64,000 bases of DNA from contig NZ_CP127174.1 of NCBI RefSeq assembly GCF_030273315.1, positions 1,302,001 to 1,366,000 on the forward strand. The letters run 5' to 3'. The translations under genes were made by a program, and so were the position numbers. This DNA comes from Natrialbaceae archaeon AArc-T1-2. GTDB lineage: Archaea; Halobacteriota; Halobacteria; Halobacteriales; Natrialbaceae. Each line of letters begins with the position of its first letter. Position 1 is the first letter of the stretch. Shown piece by piece: positions 20,840 to 24,926 of this stretch. A model generated the notes under the pieces. It was given only the letters and a program-made list of their open reading frames with translations. It was not told the DNA's origin and made no database searches.

Positions 20840-21928
20840 ATGGACGAACGGGGGCTTGGGGTGTTGCTGTGCTGTCTCGTGGTCCTTGGTGGCCTGCTCG
20901 CAGCAGCCCCGGCGATCGCCGCCGACGAGCGCGGAGCCAACACGCCGAATGCGATCTTTCAGACGGAAGACGAGCCCTCACTCGAGGGATACGACGATCT
21001 AGAGTACCGGATCGAACTCCACGAGAACGGCTCCGCATCGTGGACGGTCGAGTACCAGTACCGACTCGACGACGACAACGACACCGTCGACTGGGAGAGA
21101 CTGGAAGCAGACGTCAACGAGAACCGGGAGGCGTACCTCGCGGCGTTCGAGGAGCGCTGGGATGAAACGCTCACCGAGGCCGAGAACGAAACCGACCGAG
21201 AGATGCAGGCTACGGACTTCTCGCTCGAAACCGACGAGAGCGCGGCGGCTCACGAGTACGGCTACGTCCGCTTTACGTTCGAGTGGGATTCGTTCGCCCA
21301 CGTCGAGGTCAACCGGATCGAAGCCGGCGACGCGCTCGTCGGATTCGAACTCGACGAGCGGATCAAACTCGACGTCTCTTGGCCCGAGGCGTACAACGAC
21401 AGCGCGATCGAACCCCAGCCGGACGACCGCCGCGAGACGGCCGCGATCTGGGACGGCGAGGAGACCGACTTCCGCGAGGACGAACCTCGAGTCGAGGTGA
21501 TCGAGACGGGCGGAGCGCCGGTTGAATCGCCCGATGAGTCCGAATCACTCGTGTCGCTGCCGTTGCTCGCCGCCATCGGCGTCGCCGTTGTCGCGCTGAT
21601 CGGCGCAGCGGGGTGGCTGGTCACGAGAAACGGCCGCACCGAGATCGACGCGGAGACGTCCTCGAGCGACGACCCCGATGCGACCGATGCGACGCCACCT
21701 CCGGAGCTGTTGAGCAACGAGGAGCGAGTCCTGCGCTTGCTCGAGCAACACGGCGGTCGGATCAAACAACAGGACGTCGTCTCAGAGCTAGAGTGGACCG
21801 AGGCGAAGACGAGCCAGGTCGTCGGCGAACTCCGGGAGGCAGGTGAGATCGACGTCTTCCGGATCGGCCGCGAGAACGTGTTGACGTTACCCGACAACGA
21901 AGTGACGGTGCCGGACGACGAGGAGTGA
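20840..21928 (+). CDS. membrane-anchored winged-helix protein with external sensor domain
   Basis: A 362-residue protein: signal peptide (about 1-27, ending near AIAADE), an external acidic beta-rich domain (about 45-230), one membrane segment (about 240-262), then a linker and a cytoplasmic winged helix (about 290-350; LSNEERVLRLLEQHGGRIKQQDVV... with recognition helix EAKTSQVVGELREAG). This is the haloarchaeal arrangement in which an external signal could move a DNA-binding domain tied to the membrane. ATG at 20840 follows TATA-like tatttgggc by about 26 bases. Targets unknown. Confidence 0.75.
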   Translation: MDERGLGVLLCCLVVLGGLLAAAPAIAADERGANTPNAIFQTEDEPSLEGYDDLEYRIELHENGSASWTVEYQYRLDDDNDTVDWERLEADVNENREAYLAAFEERWDETLTEAENETDREMQATDFSLETDESAAAHEYGYVRFTFEWDSFAHVEVNRIEAGDALVGFELDERIKLDVSWPEAYNDSAIEPQPDDRRETAAIWDGEETDFREDEPRVEVIETGGAPVESPDESESLVSLPLLAAIGVAVVALIGAAGWLVTRNGRTEIDAETSSSDDPDATDATPPPELLSNEERVLRLLEQHGGRIKQQDVVSELEWTEAKTSQVVGELREAGEIDVFRIGRENVLTLPDNEVTVPDDEE

Positions 21929-22002
21929 ACCGGGTGCGGAATCGATCTGGCGAACGCCGTTCCGACAGACTTTAATAACGACGCCGTAGTACGGCCGTAC
22001 AG

Positions 22003-22086
22003 ATGCATTTGACCGCGTCCACCGCCGCTGGCGACGTCGATAGCGACGCGGCCCGAACTCTGCGACGACTGCGACGGGGCCGATAG
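22003..22086 (+). CDS. 27-codon Arg-rich ORF in the 303-base gap before argG, candidate leader peptide
   Basis: ATG at 22003 opens a 27-codon frame ending in tag at 22084-22086. Six of its last ten codons are Arg (five of them cga), ending RRLRRGR. A TATA-like tttaataac at 21971-21979 lies about 30 bases upstream, so a leaderless transcript could begin at this ATG. The next gene, 146 bases on, is argG, for arginine synthesis. The remaining gap (21929-22231) holds only a second TATA-like box (acttaagt, about 22197) for argG. Whether the ORF is translated is unknown. Confidence 0.35.
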   Translation: MHLTASTAAGDVDSDAARTLRRLRRGR

Positions 22087-22231
22087 GCCCACACTATCCT
22101 CCACTCCGTTTCCCGTCGTTCGTTCCTCACAGAAATCCACTGATTCTGTAGGTAGCTCCTGCTTCGAATAAAAATTACGTGGCTGAAATCAGTGAACTTA
22201 AGTCCGTACGGGAACTGGATTCGAGTACGAC

Positions 22232-23470
22232 ATGACACGCGTGGCACTTGCGTTCTCGGGCGGGCTGGACACGACTGTCTGTGTGCCGCTGCTCGAGGAA
22301 GAGTACGGATACGACGACGTGATCGGCGTCACCGTCGACGTCGGCCAGCCGGCCGCGGAGTTCGACGAAGCCGAAGCAACCGCCGAGGCACTCGGCCTCG
22401 AACACTACGTCGTCGACGCGCGAGCGGAGTTCGCTCAGCTCTGTCTCGAGAGCGTGCGCGCGAACGCGACCTACCAGGGCTACCCGCTTGGCACCGCACT
22501 TGCACGCCCGGTGATCGCCGAGGCGATCCTCGAGGTCGCGAAAGAACAGGACTGTGACGCCGTCGCCCACGGCTGTACGGGCAAGGGCAACGACCAGCTG
22601 CGCTTCGAGGCGATCTGGCGTGACTCGGATCTCGACGTCTACGCGCCCGTGCGCGAACTCGGACTCACCCGCGAGTGGGAACAGGAGTACGCCGACGAGA
22701 AAGACCTCCCCGTCGAAGGGGGCAGCGGCGGCGACTGGTCGATCGACACCAACCTCTGGAGTCGGTCGGTCGAGGGCGACGACTTAGAGGACCCGAGCTA
22801 CGTGCCGCCGGGGGACATCTACGACTGGACCGACGATCCCTCGGGTGAGACCGACGAGATCGAGATCAGCTTCGAGAACGGCTACCCCGTCGCCGTCGAT
22901 GGCGAGGAACTCGAACCCATCGCGCTCATCGAACAGCTGAACGAGGTCGCCGGGGCCTACGGCGTCGGTCGCACCGACATGATGGAAGACCGTATGCTCG
23001 GGCTGAAGGTCCGGGAGAACTACGAGCACCCCGCCGCGACGACGCTGCTTGCCGCCCACGAGGCCCTCGAGGGACTCGTTCTCACCCAGGAGGAACGCCA
23101 GTTCAAGACCCAGATCGACAATCAGTGGGCCCAGAAGGCCTACGAGGGACTGGTCGACGCGCCGCTCGTGTCCGCCCTCGATGGGTTCATCGCGGAGACC
23201 CAGAAACGCGTCACGGGAACGGTGACGATCCGCTTCGAGGGCGGCCGGGCCCGCCCGGTCGCTCGCGACAGCGAGTACGCCGCCTACTCCGCCGCCCACG
23301 CTTCCTTCGACACCGAGACGGTCGGGAAGATCGAACAGGAAGACGCCACCGGCGTCGCCAAGTACCACGGCTTCCAGCGTCGCCTGGCCAACGAGTCGAT
23401 CGCGGCACTCGGCGGCGAGGACGAGACGACCGACGTGGCAACCGACGGCGGCGACGCCGACGAGGACTAA
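22232..23470 (+). CDS. argG: argininosuccinate synthase
   Basis: A 412-residue cytosolic enzyme joining citrulline and aspartate with ATP to make argininosuccinate, the penultimate arginine step. The N-type ATP-pyrophosphatase motif AFSGGLDTT is at residues 6-14; GCTGKGNDQLRF near 112-123 is the second family signature. The acidic C-terminus (last 20 residues) is a halophilic tail. ATG at 22232 fits the family start MTRVALAFSGG; a TATA-like acttaagt is about 30 bases upstream. argH follows after one base, so the two are an operon. Confidence 0.96.
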   Translation: MTRVALAFSGGLDTTVCVPLLEEEYGYDDVIGVTVDVGQPAAEFDEAEATAEALGLEHYVVDARAEFAQLCLESVRANATYQGYPLGTALARPVIAEAILEVAKEQDCDAVAHGCTGKGNDQLRFEAIWRDSDLDVYAPVRELGLTREWEQEYADEKDLPVEGGSGGDWSIDTNLWSRSVEGDDLEDPSYVPPGDIYDWTDDPSGETDEIEISFENGYPVAVDGEELEPIALIEQLNEVAGAYGVGRTDMMEDRMLGLKVRENYEHPAATTLLAAHEALEGLVLTQEERQFKTQIDNQWAQKAYEGLVDAPLVSALDGFIAETQKRVTGTVTIRFEGGRARPVARDSEYAAYSAAHASFDTETVGKIEQEDATGVAKYHGFQRRLANESIAALGGEDETTDVATDGGDADED

Positions 23471-23471
23471 C

Positions 23472-24926
23472 ATGACCGACGAGGGGACAGACGAAAGCGT
23501 CGTTCGCCGCGATCGCTTCAGCGGCGGCCCCGCGCGCTCGTTTCTCTCCTCGCTTGCGGCCGACCGGCGGATCTTCGCGGCCGACCTCGCGGTCGACCGC
23601 GCCCACGTCGTGATGCTCGCGGAGTGTGACGTCATCGGCGACGACGTCGCCAGCGAGATCTTAGAGGCGCTCAAGGAGATCGAAGCGGCCGGCCACGACG
23701 ACCTCCCGGACGGCGAGGACGTCCACGAGGCGATCGAGACCGCCGTCATCGAGCGGATCGGTCCCGATGGTGGGAAGATGCACACCGCCCGCTCGAGAAA
23801 CGACGAGGTCGCGACCTGCATCCGCTACCGGCTGCGCGAGGACGTCCGCGAGGCCCTCGAGGCGACGCGTGGCCTGCGCGAGGCCTTGCTCGAGGTCGCC
23901 GACGAGAATCGAGAGACGATCATGCCTGGCTACACGCACCTCCAGCCCGCCCAGCCGACGACGGTCGCCCACTGGGCGCTGTCCTACGAGGCGGCCGTCC
24001 GGCGCGACACGGCCCGGCTGCTCGAGGCCTACGACCGGATCAATCAGTCGCCACTGGGCGGGGCGGCCTTTGCGGGCACCACCTTCGAGATCGACCGCGA
24101 GCGCACCGCCGAGTTGCTCGGCTTCGAGTCGGTCGTCGAGAACTCGATGGACGCCGCCTCGAGCCGGGACTTCTTGCTCGAGACGATCCAGGCGCTGTCG
24201 ACGCTCGCGACGACGCTGTCGGGACTCGCCGAGGACGTCATCATCTTCGCGAATCGCGGCTTCGTCTCCCTCTCCGACGACTACGCCTCGACGTCGTCGA
24301 TCATGCCCCAGAAGAAGAACCCGGACACGCTCGAACTCGTCCGTGCGGTCGCGGGCGACGCGGCCGGCGAGGTCCAGGGGCTGACCACGACGCTAAAAGG
24401 ATTGCCACGCGCGTACAACCGCGACCTCCAGCGTGCAACGGGCCACGCCTGGGAGACCGTCGACGCGGTGACGGAGGCGACCGAGGTCGCCGCGGGCGCG
24501 GTCGCGACGGCCGACTGGAACGAAGAAGTCCTGGCCGACGCCGCCGGCGAGGGCTTTGCGACGGCGACCGGTGTCGCGGATCTGCTCGCTGCCAACGGAG
24601 TGCCGTTCCGGACGGCTCACGAAGTGGTAGCATGGGCGGCGGAAAACGGCGCGGACTACGATGCCATCGAGGCAGCCGCCGCCGAGATCCTGGAAGACGA
24701 CCTCGAGAGCTGCGTCGAGCCCGCGGCCGTCGAGGCGGCGCTCGAGCCGGCCGAAAGCGTCGCCAGCCGGAACTCCCGTGGCGGCCCCGCACCCGCGGCC
24801 GTCGCGACGACGCTCGAGTCGGCCCGTGCGGACCTCGACGCCGACGAGGCGGCGCTTGCGGACCTCGCAGCCGACCTCGAGGACGCAGCCGAGACGCTTC
24901 GGTCGGAGGTGGCCGGGTATGTCTAA
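23472..24926 (+). CDS. argH: argininosuccinate lyase
   Basis: A 484-residue fumarase/aspartase-superfamily enzyme cleaving argininosuccinate to arginine and fumarate. The signature loop SSIMPQKKNPD lies near residues 274-284, with the conserved TARSRNDEVAT near 99-109 and PGYTHLQPAQPTT near 154. Length is normal. It begins one base after the argG stop, so it is translationally linked. A 249-base gap follows before lysW. Confidence 0.96.
   Translation: MTDEGTDESVVRRDRFSGGPARSFLSSLAADRRIFAADLAVDRAHVVMLAECDVIGDDVASEILEALKEIEAAGHDDLPDGEDVHEAIETAVIERIGPDGGKMHTARSRNDEVATCIRYRLREDVREALEATRGLREALLEVADENRETIMPGYTHLQPAQPTTVAHWALSYEAAVRRDTARLLEAYDRINQSPLGGAAFAGTTFEIDRERTAELLGFESVVENSMDAASSRDFLLETIQALSTLATTLSGLAEDVIIFANRGFVSLSDDYASTSSIMPQKKNPDTLELVRAVAGDAAGEVQGLTTTLKGLPRAYNRDLQRATGHAWETVDAVTEATEVAAGAVATADWNEEVLADAAGEGFATATGVADLLAANGVPFRTAHEVVAWAAENGADYDAIEAAAAEILEDDLESCVEPAAVEAALEPAESVASRNSRGGPAPAAVATTLESARADLDADEAALADLAADLEDAAETLRSEVAGYV

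Follow-up and report, generated by a model that had tools for sequence, protein, structure and literature searches.

Features of the arginine locus

What function could be performed by a short, arginine-rich reading frame that stands in front of the arginine genes of a haloarchaeon? In bacterial attenuators, such as the trp, his, leu and ilv leaders of enterobacteria, the ribosome stalls at codons for the end product of the pathway, and an earlier note on the window (the whole stretch of 64,000 nucleotides that was analysed) proposed a similar layout for the frame at 22003-22086. Judging from the sequence and its comparison with relatives, we consider it probable, at about 0.75, that the product of this frame is the leader peptide through which a ribosome-mediated attenuator controls the haloarchaeal arginine operon. 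The parts of the locus are the following.

21971-21977, plus strand: leader promoter P1, the TATA-like box TTTAATA, from sequence
22003-22086, plus strand: leader ORF of 27 codons with an Arg-rich tail and a TAG stop, probably leaderless; translation MHLTASTAAGDVDSDAARTLRRLRRGR, then the stop
22011-22019, plus strand: 5' arm of stem H1, GACCGCGTC, eight of nine positions paired with the 3' arm
22045-22053, plus strand: 3' arm of stem H1, GACGCGGCC, pairing with 22011-22019
22054-22083, plus strand: control codons, Arg at codons 18, 21, 22, 24, 25 and 27
22077-22090, plus strand: hairpin H2, GGGCC(GATA)GGCCC, with the leader stop codon in its loop
22092-22107, plus strand: G-free tract 3' of H2, from sequence
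22148-22179, plus strand: conserved block between the leader and P2, its conservation in the family judged by eye
22196-22203, plus strand: P2, a second TATA-like box (ACTTAAGT) just upstream of argG, from sequence
22232-23470, plus strand: first structural gene, starting at 22232, which we take to be argG (argininosuccinate synthase) from the earlier note and from family features
23472-24926, plus strand: next gene of the arginine cluster, presumably argH, as named from its signature

Translation bears out the frame as it had been described, with six Arg in the last ten codons (RTLRRLRRGR), five of them CGA and one CGG; the TATA-like box, which had been placed about 30 bases upstream, has its first base 32 nt before the leader ATG. 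Haloarchaeal transcripts with this spacing usually begin at or near the start codon, so the leader transcript is expected to start at the ATG or a few nucleotides upstream of it and hence to be leaderless. The second TATA-like box, the stop codon in the loop of H2, the 5' stem and the G-free tract add to the earlier description.

Two further observations concern the flanks of the leader. A perfect 12-base palindrome, GTACGGCCGTAC, lies at 21989-22000, near the expected transcript start, and ends three bases 5' of the leader ATG; it is not found at that place in the relatives compared. The block at 22148-22179, about -85 to -50 of argG, reads GGTTAGCAGCCGCTCT..TTAATTTACG in relatives and could serve P2 as a regulator site or be a terminator.

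Conservation of the leader among argG loci

The comparison covered 125 argG loci from 124 genomes of the family and 43 loci from other families. Among 125 family genomes, G118 gave only a weak match and G099 gave two copies, of which the divergent second one (L206) was kept as a miss. The 37 named loci L033-L069 of the same family were excluded, being of the same species as loci with G handles; L002 was dropped as not being argG, and L109 very probably comes from the same genome as L199. A leader was accepted if it had a start, at least three Arg in the last 14 codons and a stop in the loop of a GC hairpin.

This rule is satisfied by 153 of the 168 loci, that is, 117/125 in the family and 36/43 elsewhere, including Haloferax, Halorussus, Halobellus, Halovenus and Halorientalis; the earlier note had set the comparison with relatives as one test of its proposal, and the frame is kept. 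L105, which would have been the 37th of the 43 others, matched the rule by an artefact and is not counted. The 153 leaders comprise 142 distinct sequences, a pattern search finds a TATA-like box 5' of the ATG in 145 of all 153, and of the stops in the H2 loop 87 are TGA and 66 are TAG. Eleven of the leaders belong to Haloferax loci (L070, L077, L080, L084-L086, L089, L090, L093, L095 and L100), H. volcanii itself lying outside the sampled loci.

The 15 misses are mostly partial, as 12 of them keep both the Arg run and the hairpin. Seven in the family (L118, L140, L150, L155, L157, L159 and L161) have no in-frame stop in the loop and are read through the hairpin in frame, so the position of the stop in the loop is not indispensable, and in five loci from other families (L072, L082, L091, L104 and L106) the stop falls just past the hairpin. 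The other three are L206, L105 and L108, the last of which has no such hairpin stop. When the search was made blind to the frame, using only TATA, ATG and GC hairpin, the first in-frame stop fell inside the hairpin in 124 of the 142 distinct sequences, 14 loci being dropped for want of a landmark.

Two minor points emerged from the sample. The sequences of L155, L157, L159 and L161 recur in L042, L045 and L049, named Natronorubrum. The argG matches of G014, G015, G043, G051 and G106 came in two pieces, pointing to insertions in frame or to divergent sequence around residues 221-294.

A twin leader upstream of ilvB

Regions upstream of ilvB, trpC, trpD, hisG, carA, thrC and pheA were taken from the same genome and from 25 relatives. 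A leader precedes ilvB in 22 of 24 loci (20 found by the detector, L264 and L277 recognised in the printed sequence). All 22 carry at least three Ile, Leu or Val in the seven codons up to the GTA of a hairpin GTAGGGG..CCCC, with tails such as SASLIIV, LARIRIV and LLIVGIV, and their stop at the hairpin is TAG, TAA (L270) or TGA (L276), while in L264 it lies just past the hairpin. The copy in the genome of the window is the following.

G000:C1:82824-82912: ilvB leader; translation MTRRRPTVAHTAASGAFASLLIVGIVGAR, then the stop

Under the same rule the six control genes, taken irrespective of their position in an operon, gave 3 matches in 155 loci: trpC 1/26 (L298), trpD 0/23, hisG 0/25, carA 0/25, thrC 0/30 and pheA 2/26 (L429 and L437). 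These three are mutually unlike, and none is common to other loci; the upstream sequence was short in L328 (413 nt), L409 (4 nt) and L437 (401 nt). A looser first rule gave ilvB 18/24, trpC 1/26, trpD 1/23, hisG 0/25 and carA 0/25. The product of carA also feeds arginine synthesis, yet the gene has no such leader. A plasmid search gave no match.

The leader-peptide layout proposed in the earlier note is thus supported by the end-product codons, the hairpin at the stop, the conservation and the twin at ilvB. The proposal was right in kind and the phenomenon is larger than stated, extending over several haloarchaeal families and at least two operons; the comparison strongly suggests a function.

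A second small ORF (beginning ATGACA or ATGGCA) was seen by eye upstream of ilvB in several of the loci L260-L274, for example L267. Its end overlaps the start of ilvB in the sequence ATGA, so that its translation may be coupled to that of ilvB, and a CACCGTTTTCAGAGCGACCAGC-like block lies 5' of it.

Control codons and the peptide

Arg occupies the fourth codon before the stop in 135 of the 142 distinct argG leaders, and apart from its content of Arg and Pro and a Gly/Ala-Leu/Arg end, the peptide shows no conservation. The choice among Arg codons is unusual in comparison with the gene that follows: of 749 Arg codons in the leader tails 454 are CGA and 14 are CGC, whereas of 1050 in argG itself, from 60 distinct loci with enough sequence, 43 are CGA and 773 are CGC. 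The share of CGA is higher in the leader than in its own argG in 58 of these 60 loci. In the genome of the window, CGC accounts for 0.347 and CGA for 0.161 in 179 long frames, which were picked for high third-position GC and so favour codons ending in C or G. In the ilv leaders Ile is written ATT in 29 of 40 cases, compared with 0.087 in genes of the window's genome. Val is GTA in 26 of 35; in 22 of these 26 the codon served as the anchor of the search and belongs to the H2 stem, and outside the anchor GTA makes up 4 of 13, compared with 0.042 in the window's genome. The control codons tend to be those that the genes avoid, and the preference for CGA could partly be avoidance of structure.

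These data bear on the alternative that the leader is an arrest peptide sensing high arginine, with excess Arg stalling the ribosome at the H2 stop and blocking downstream expression. Its most constrained parts, the stop position and the tail, agree with this, and the polarity would also suit a biosynthetic gene. However, arrest peptides have a conserved sequence, and none is found here beyond the residues named above; the twin at ilvB is an unrelated peptide with the same layout, and under-used Arg codons fit the sensing of codons better than the sensing of a peptide. We therefore regard an arrest peptide as unlikely, and the attenuator, in which the codons themselves are sensed, as the preferred reading.

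Promoters of the leader and of the gene

Does the leader share its mRNA with the gene? Of the 117 family leaders, 109 (that of the window among them) are separated from argG by a stretch with a TATA-like match, as are 24 of the 36 others. In the family, where this second box is frequent, argG expression may be only partly under the leader's control. In 20 argG loci and in all 22 ilvB loci the stretch from leader to gene has no further TATA-like box, and there expression of the gene would hardly be possible by any route but the leader, unless it has a promoter that the pattern misses. The 20 argG loci consist of eight from the family, in two genera (L195-L200, L204 and L205), and 12 others, among them Halorussus, Halovenus, Halorientalis, Halobacterium and Haloarchaeobius (L109 probably repeating L199). 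The pattern search returns the same 20; ten Haloferax loci, in which the argG start was judged by eye to be misassigned, and L173, which has a TTAAT match, were removed from the list.

The same evidence bears on whether the leader could be an independent small protein gene, or a small RNA, that has its own promoter and merely adjoins argG. Its own TATA-like box and the frequent second box before argG are what such a gene would show, but the loci in which no other box precedes argG or ilvB, the lack of peptide conservation and the match of the codons to the end product in two operons speak against it, and we hold this explanation to be quite improbable.

Reading frame and RNA structure

Coding constraint was measured in 70 nearest-neighbour pairs over the ten codons 5' of H2. 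In the real frame the codon changes divide into 59 synonymous and 69 non-synonymous, compared with 13:108 and 25:97 in the other two frames. On this pattern the leader frame is to be regarded as a coding sequence under selection.

Hairpin H2 varies in sequence and keeps its pairing, with stems such as GGGCC/GGCCC, GGCCC/GGGCC, GGGGTC/GACCCC and CGGGCTC/GAGCCCG. Stem H1 pairs approximately codons 3-8 with codons 12-18 and differs in sequence between clades, the pairs changing on both sides. Among 112 distinct family leaders its share of Watson-Crick pairs is 0.65 at the shared geometry, compared with 0.12-0.37 when the arms are slid. Against 60 codon shuffles per locus, H1 scored above every shuffle in 44 of the 142 distinct leaders and was reached by at most three shuffles in 83. 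In the window alone H1 is not significant, its score being reached by 12 of 60 codon shuffles, so the evidence for H1 is its covariation across loci; the minimum-energy fold of the window leader contains H2 and lacks H1. In the ilv leaders H1 is not significant either, as only 2 of 22 have a score reached by five or fewer of 100 shuffles.

Directly after H2 there is no classical U-run of the kind that marks an intrinsic terminator, and a G-poor tract of C, A and T is found instead: the frequency of G at +11 to +20 after the stop is 0.00 in 116 distinct family sequences, 0.01 in 34 others and 0.03 in the 22 ilv leaders, where the position is approximate. T-runs farther downstream were considered as a terminator and rejected as too variable, TTTT occurring in 37, 29 and 40 of the 116 family sequences around +51 to +60, +61 to +70 and +81 to +90, respectively. 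A third hairpin before argG (H3), suspected by eye in lineages lacking P2, is not claimed; its folds in 15 of the 20 P2-lacking loci have mixed z-scores from -3.7 to +0.9. No conserved antiterminator pairing was found by eye or in single folds. Rfam gave no match at gathering score in L267, L260, L079 and L071, and on 21800-22400 of the window it gave two matches at E 3.7, far below threshold.

Could the locus be purely an RNA or DNA element, made up of hairpins or of a GC-rich operator, with only an incidental open frame? The conservation of H1 and H2 as structures in argG leaders is in line with this. Against it, the synonymous excess is limited to the real frame, the identity of the stop varies at both operons, and the residues encoded are Arg at one operon and Ile, Leu and Val at the other, which makes an incidental frame highly improbable.

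The role of chance

A total of 464 kb from the genome of the window, consisting of the window and 20 stretches of 20 kb, was scanned on both strands for ATG-started frames of 15-45 codons, nested starts being counted apart. Of the 1606 frames obtained, 21 are preceded by a TATA-like box, 132 have a stop-codon hairpin with four or more GC pairs, and 431 carry at least three Arg in the last 14 codons; box and hairpin occur together in two, and all three features in one, which is the leader at 22003-22086 itself. Chance Arg codons in GC-rich DNA, the serious alternative of the earlier note, can draw on those 431 Arg-rich tails and are nevertheless practically excluded by the single frame with all three features, by the conservation at 153 of 168 loci and by the coding constraint.

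Proposed mechanism of attenuation

Several properties of an attenuator are present in the sequence: a short ORF lies between a promoter-like box and a biosynthetic operon, its control codons specify the end product (Arg at argG, Ile/Leu/Val at ilvB), and its reading frame is under coding constraint. In the proposed mechanism, P1 would give a leaderless transcript, and a ribosome would translate the leader while RNA polymerase moves on. A shortage of charged Arg-tRNA would make the ribosome pause in the Arg run. The distance from the start of the last conserved Arg codon to the stop is 12 nt, so that the footprint of a ribosome paused at this codon would include the 5' arm of H2. H2 would then be kept open, and transcription would continue into argG or the downstream mRNA would stay exposed. 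If arginine is plentiful, the ribosome would finish at the stop inside H2 and leave, and H2 would close; H1 would re-form over the first codons and limit reloading, and expression would be cut between H2 and argG.

Since the paused ribosome would cover one arm of H2, the simplest model is a direct one, in which stalling keeps H2 open and completion closes it. As no U-run follows H2, this hairpin might act by factor-dependent termination, by causing a pause, or on the translation of the downstream mRNA. The comparison supports conservation of the coding frame, the agreement of the control codons with the end product at two operons, the structures H1 (in argG leaders) and H2, and the existence of lineages with no other promoter-like box before the gene. 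Stalling and its direction, the role of H2 as an 'off' element, and a control that acts on transcription and not on translation are inferences of the model.

A wider statement would be that Halobacteria possess a family of ribosome-mediated, amino-acid-sensing attenuators, with leaderless leaders, end-product codons and a stop within a terminator-like or pause-like hairpin, in which the ribosome directly blocks the hairpin with neither U-run nor antiterminator, and which control the arginine and branched-chain operons; for this whole statement we see the balance as even. Matched control codons at two operons across the class make the attenuator question directly testable. Confirmation would mean that leader peptides let translation control gene expression in archaea, and would offer a handle on archaeal termination.

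Relation to known leader peptides

With the attenuators of enterobacteria the haloarchaeal leaders share a short translated leader, a run of end-product codons, hairpins, and a position upstream of a biosynthetic operon; under-used control codons are also known from the enterobacterial leu leader. They differ in being archaeal and probably leaderless, in having the stop in a hairpin loop, and in having no U-run directly after the hairpin and no antiterminator that we could find. The arginine attenuator peptide of fungi, a uORF of conserved sequence that arrests ribosomes in high Arg, is likewise an arginine-responsive leader peptide upstream of an arginine gene, the response being a proposal in our case. 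Unlike the haloarchaeal leader, it is a conserved peptide and acts in a context of eukaryotic scanning.

Closer in arrangement are the ilvB leaders of Actinobacteria, in which, in the sections available, Ile, Val and Leu codons overlap a candidate terminator hairpin (PMC1262725). This overlap of codons and hairpin upstream of ilvB is shared with the haloarchaeal leaders, the actinobacterial leader peptides being bacterial (PMC1262725, PMC11857589, in the parts available); in Streptomyces coelicolor codon changes are described there as having no effect (PMC1262725). According to the same sections, the cys leaders of mycobacteria resemble ours in their end-product codons near the stop, no obvious intrinsic terminator and pyrimidine motifs thereafter, and differ in being bacterial, with candidate Rho sites and no conserved hairpins (PMC1262725).

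As for archaea, passages of a 2014 paper state that attenuators had no direct experimental support in vivo (PMC4247193), and the available parts of PMC12482152 and PMC12186497 contain nothing on such leaders. No archaeal amino-acid leader peptide was found in the literature covered, preprints and most subscription journals being outside that coverage. The leader-peptide attenuator proposed here looks like a bacterial kind long known, and as far as that literature goes it would be new to archaea.

The nearest archaeal material is a start-site map of Haloferax volcanii, which in the sections available lists 16 uORFs in long 5'-UTRs (PMC4983044). These uORFs are similar to our leaders in their length of 15-31 codons and their location in archaeal 5'-UTRs, and 7 of the 16 have a second start at the main gene; in contrast to our leaders, they have low isoelectric points, none is labelled argG or ilvB in those sections, and no attenuation is proposed there (PMC4983044). 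Two of them stand upstream of tryptophan tRNA ligase (23 amino acids) and pheS (26 amino acids) (PMC4983044, Table 2), and it is possible that these uORFs before tRNA ligase genes are further leader peptides.
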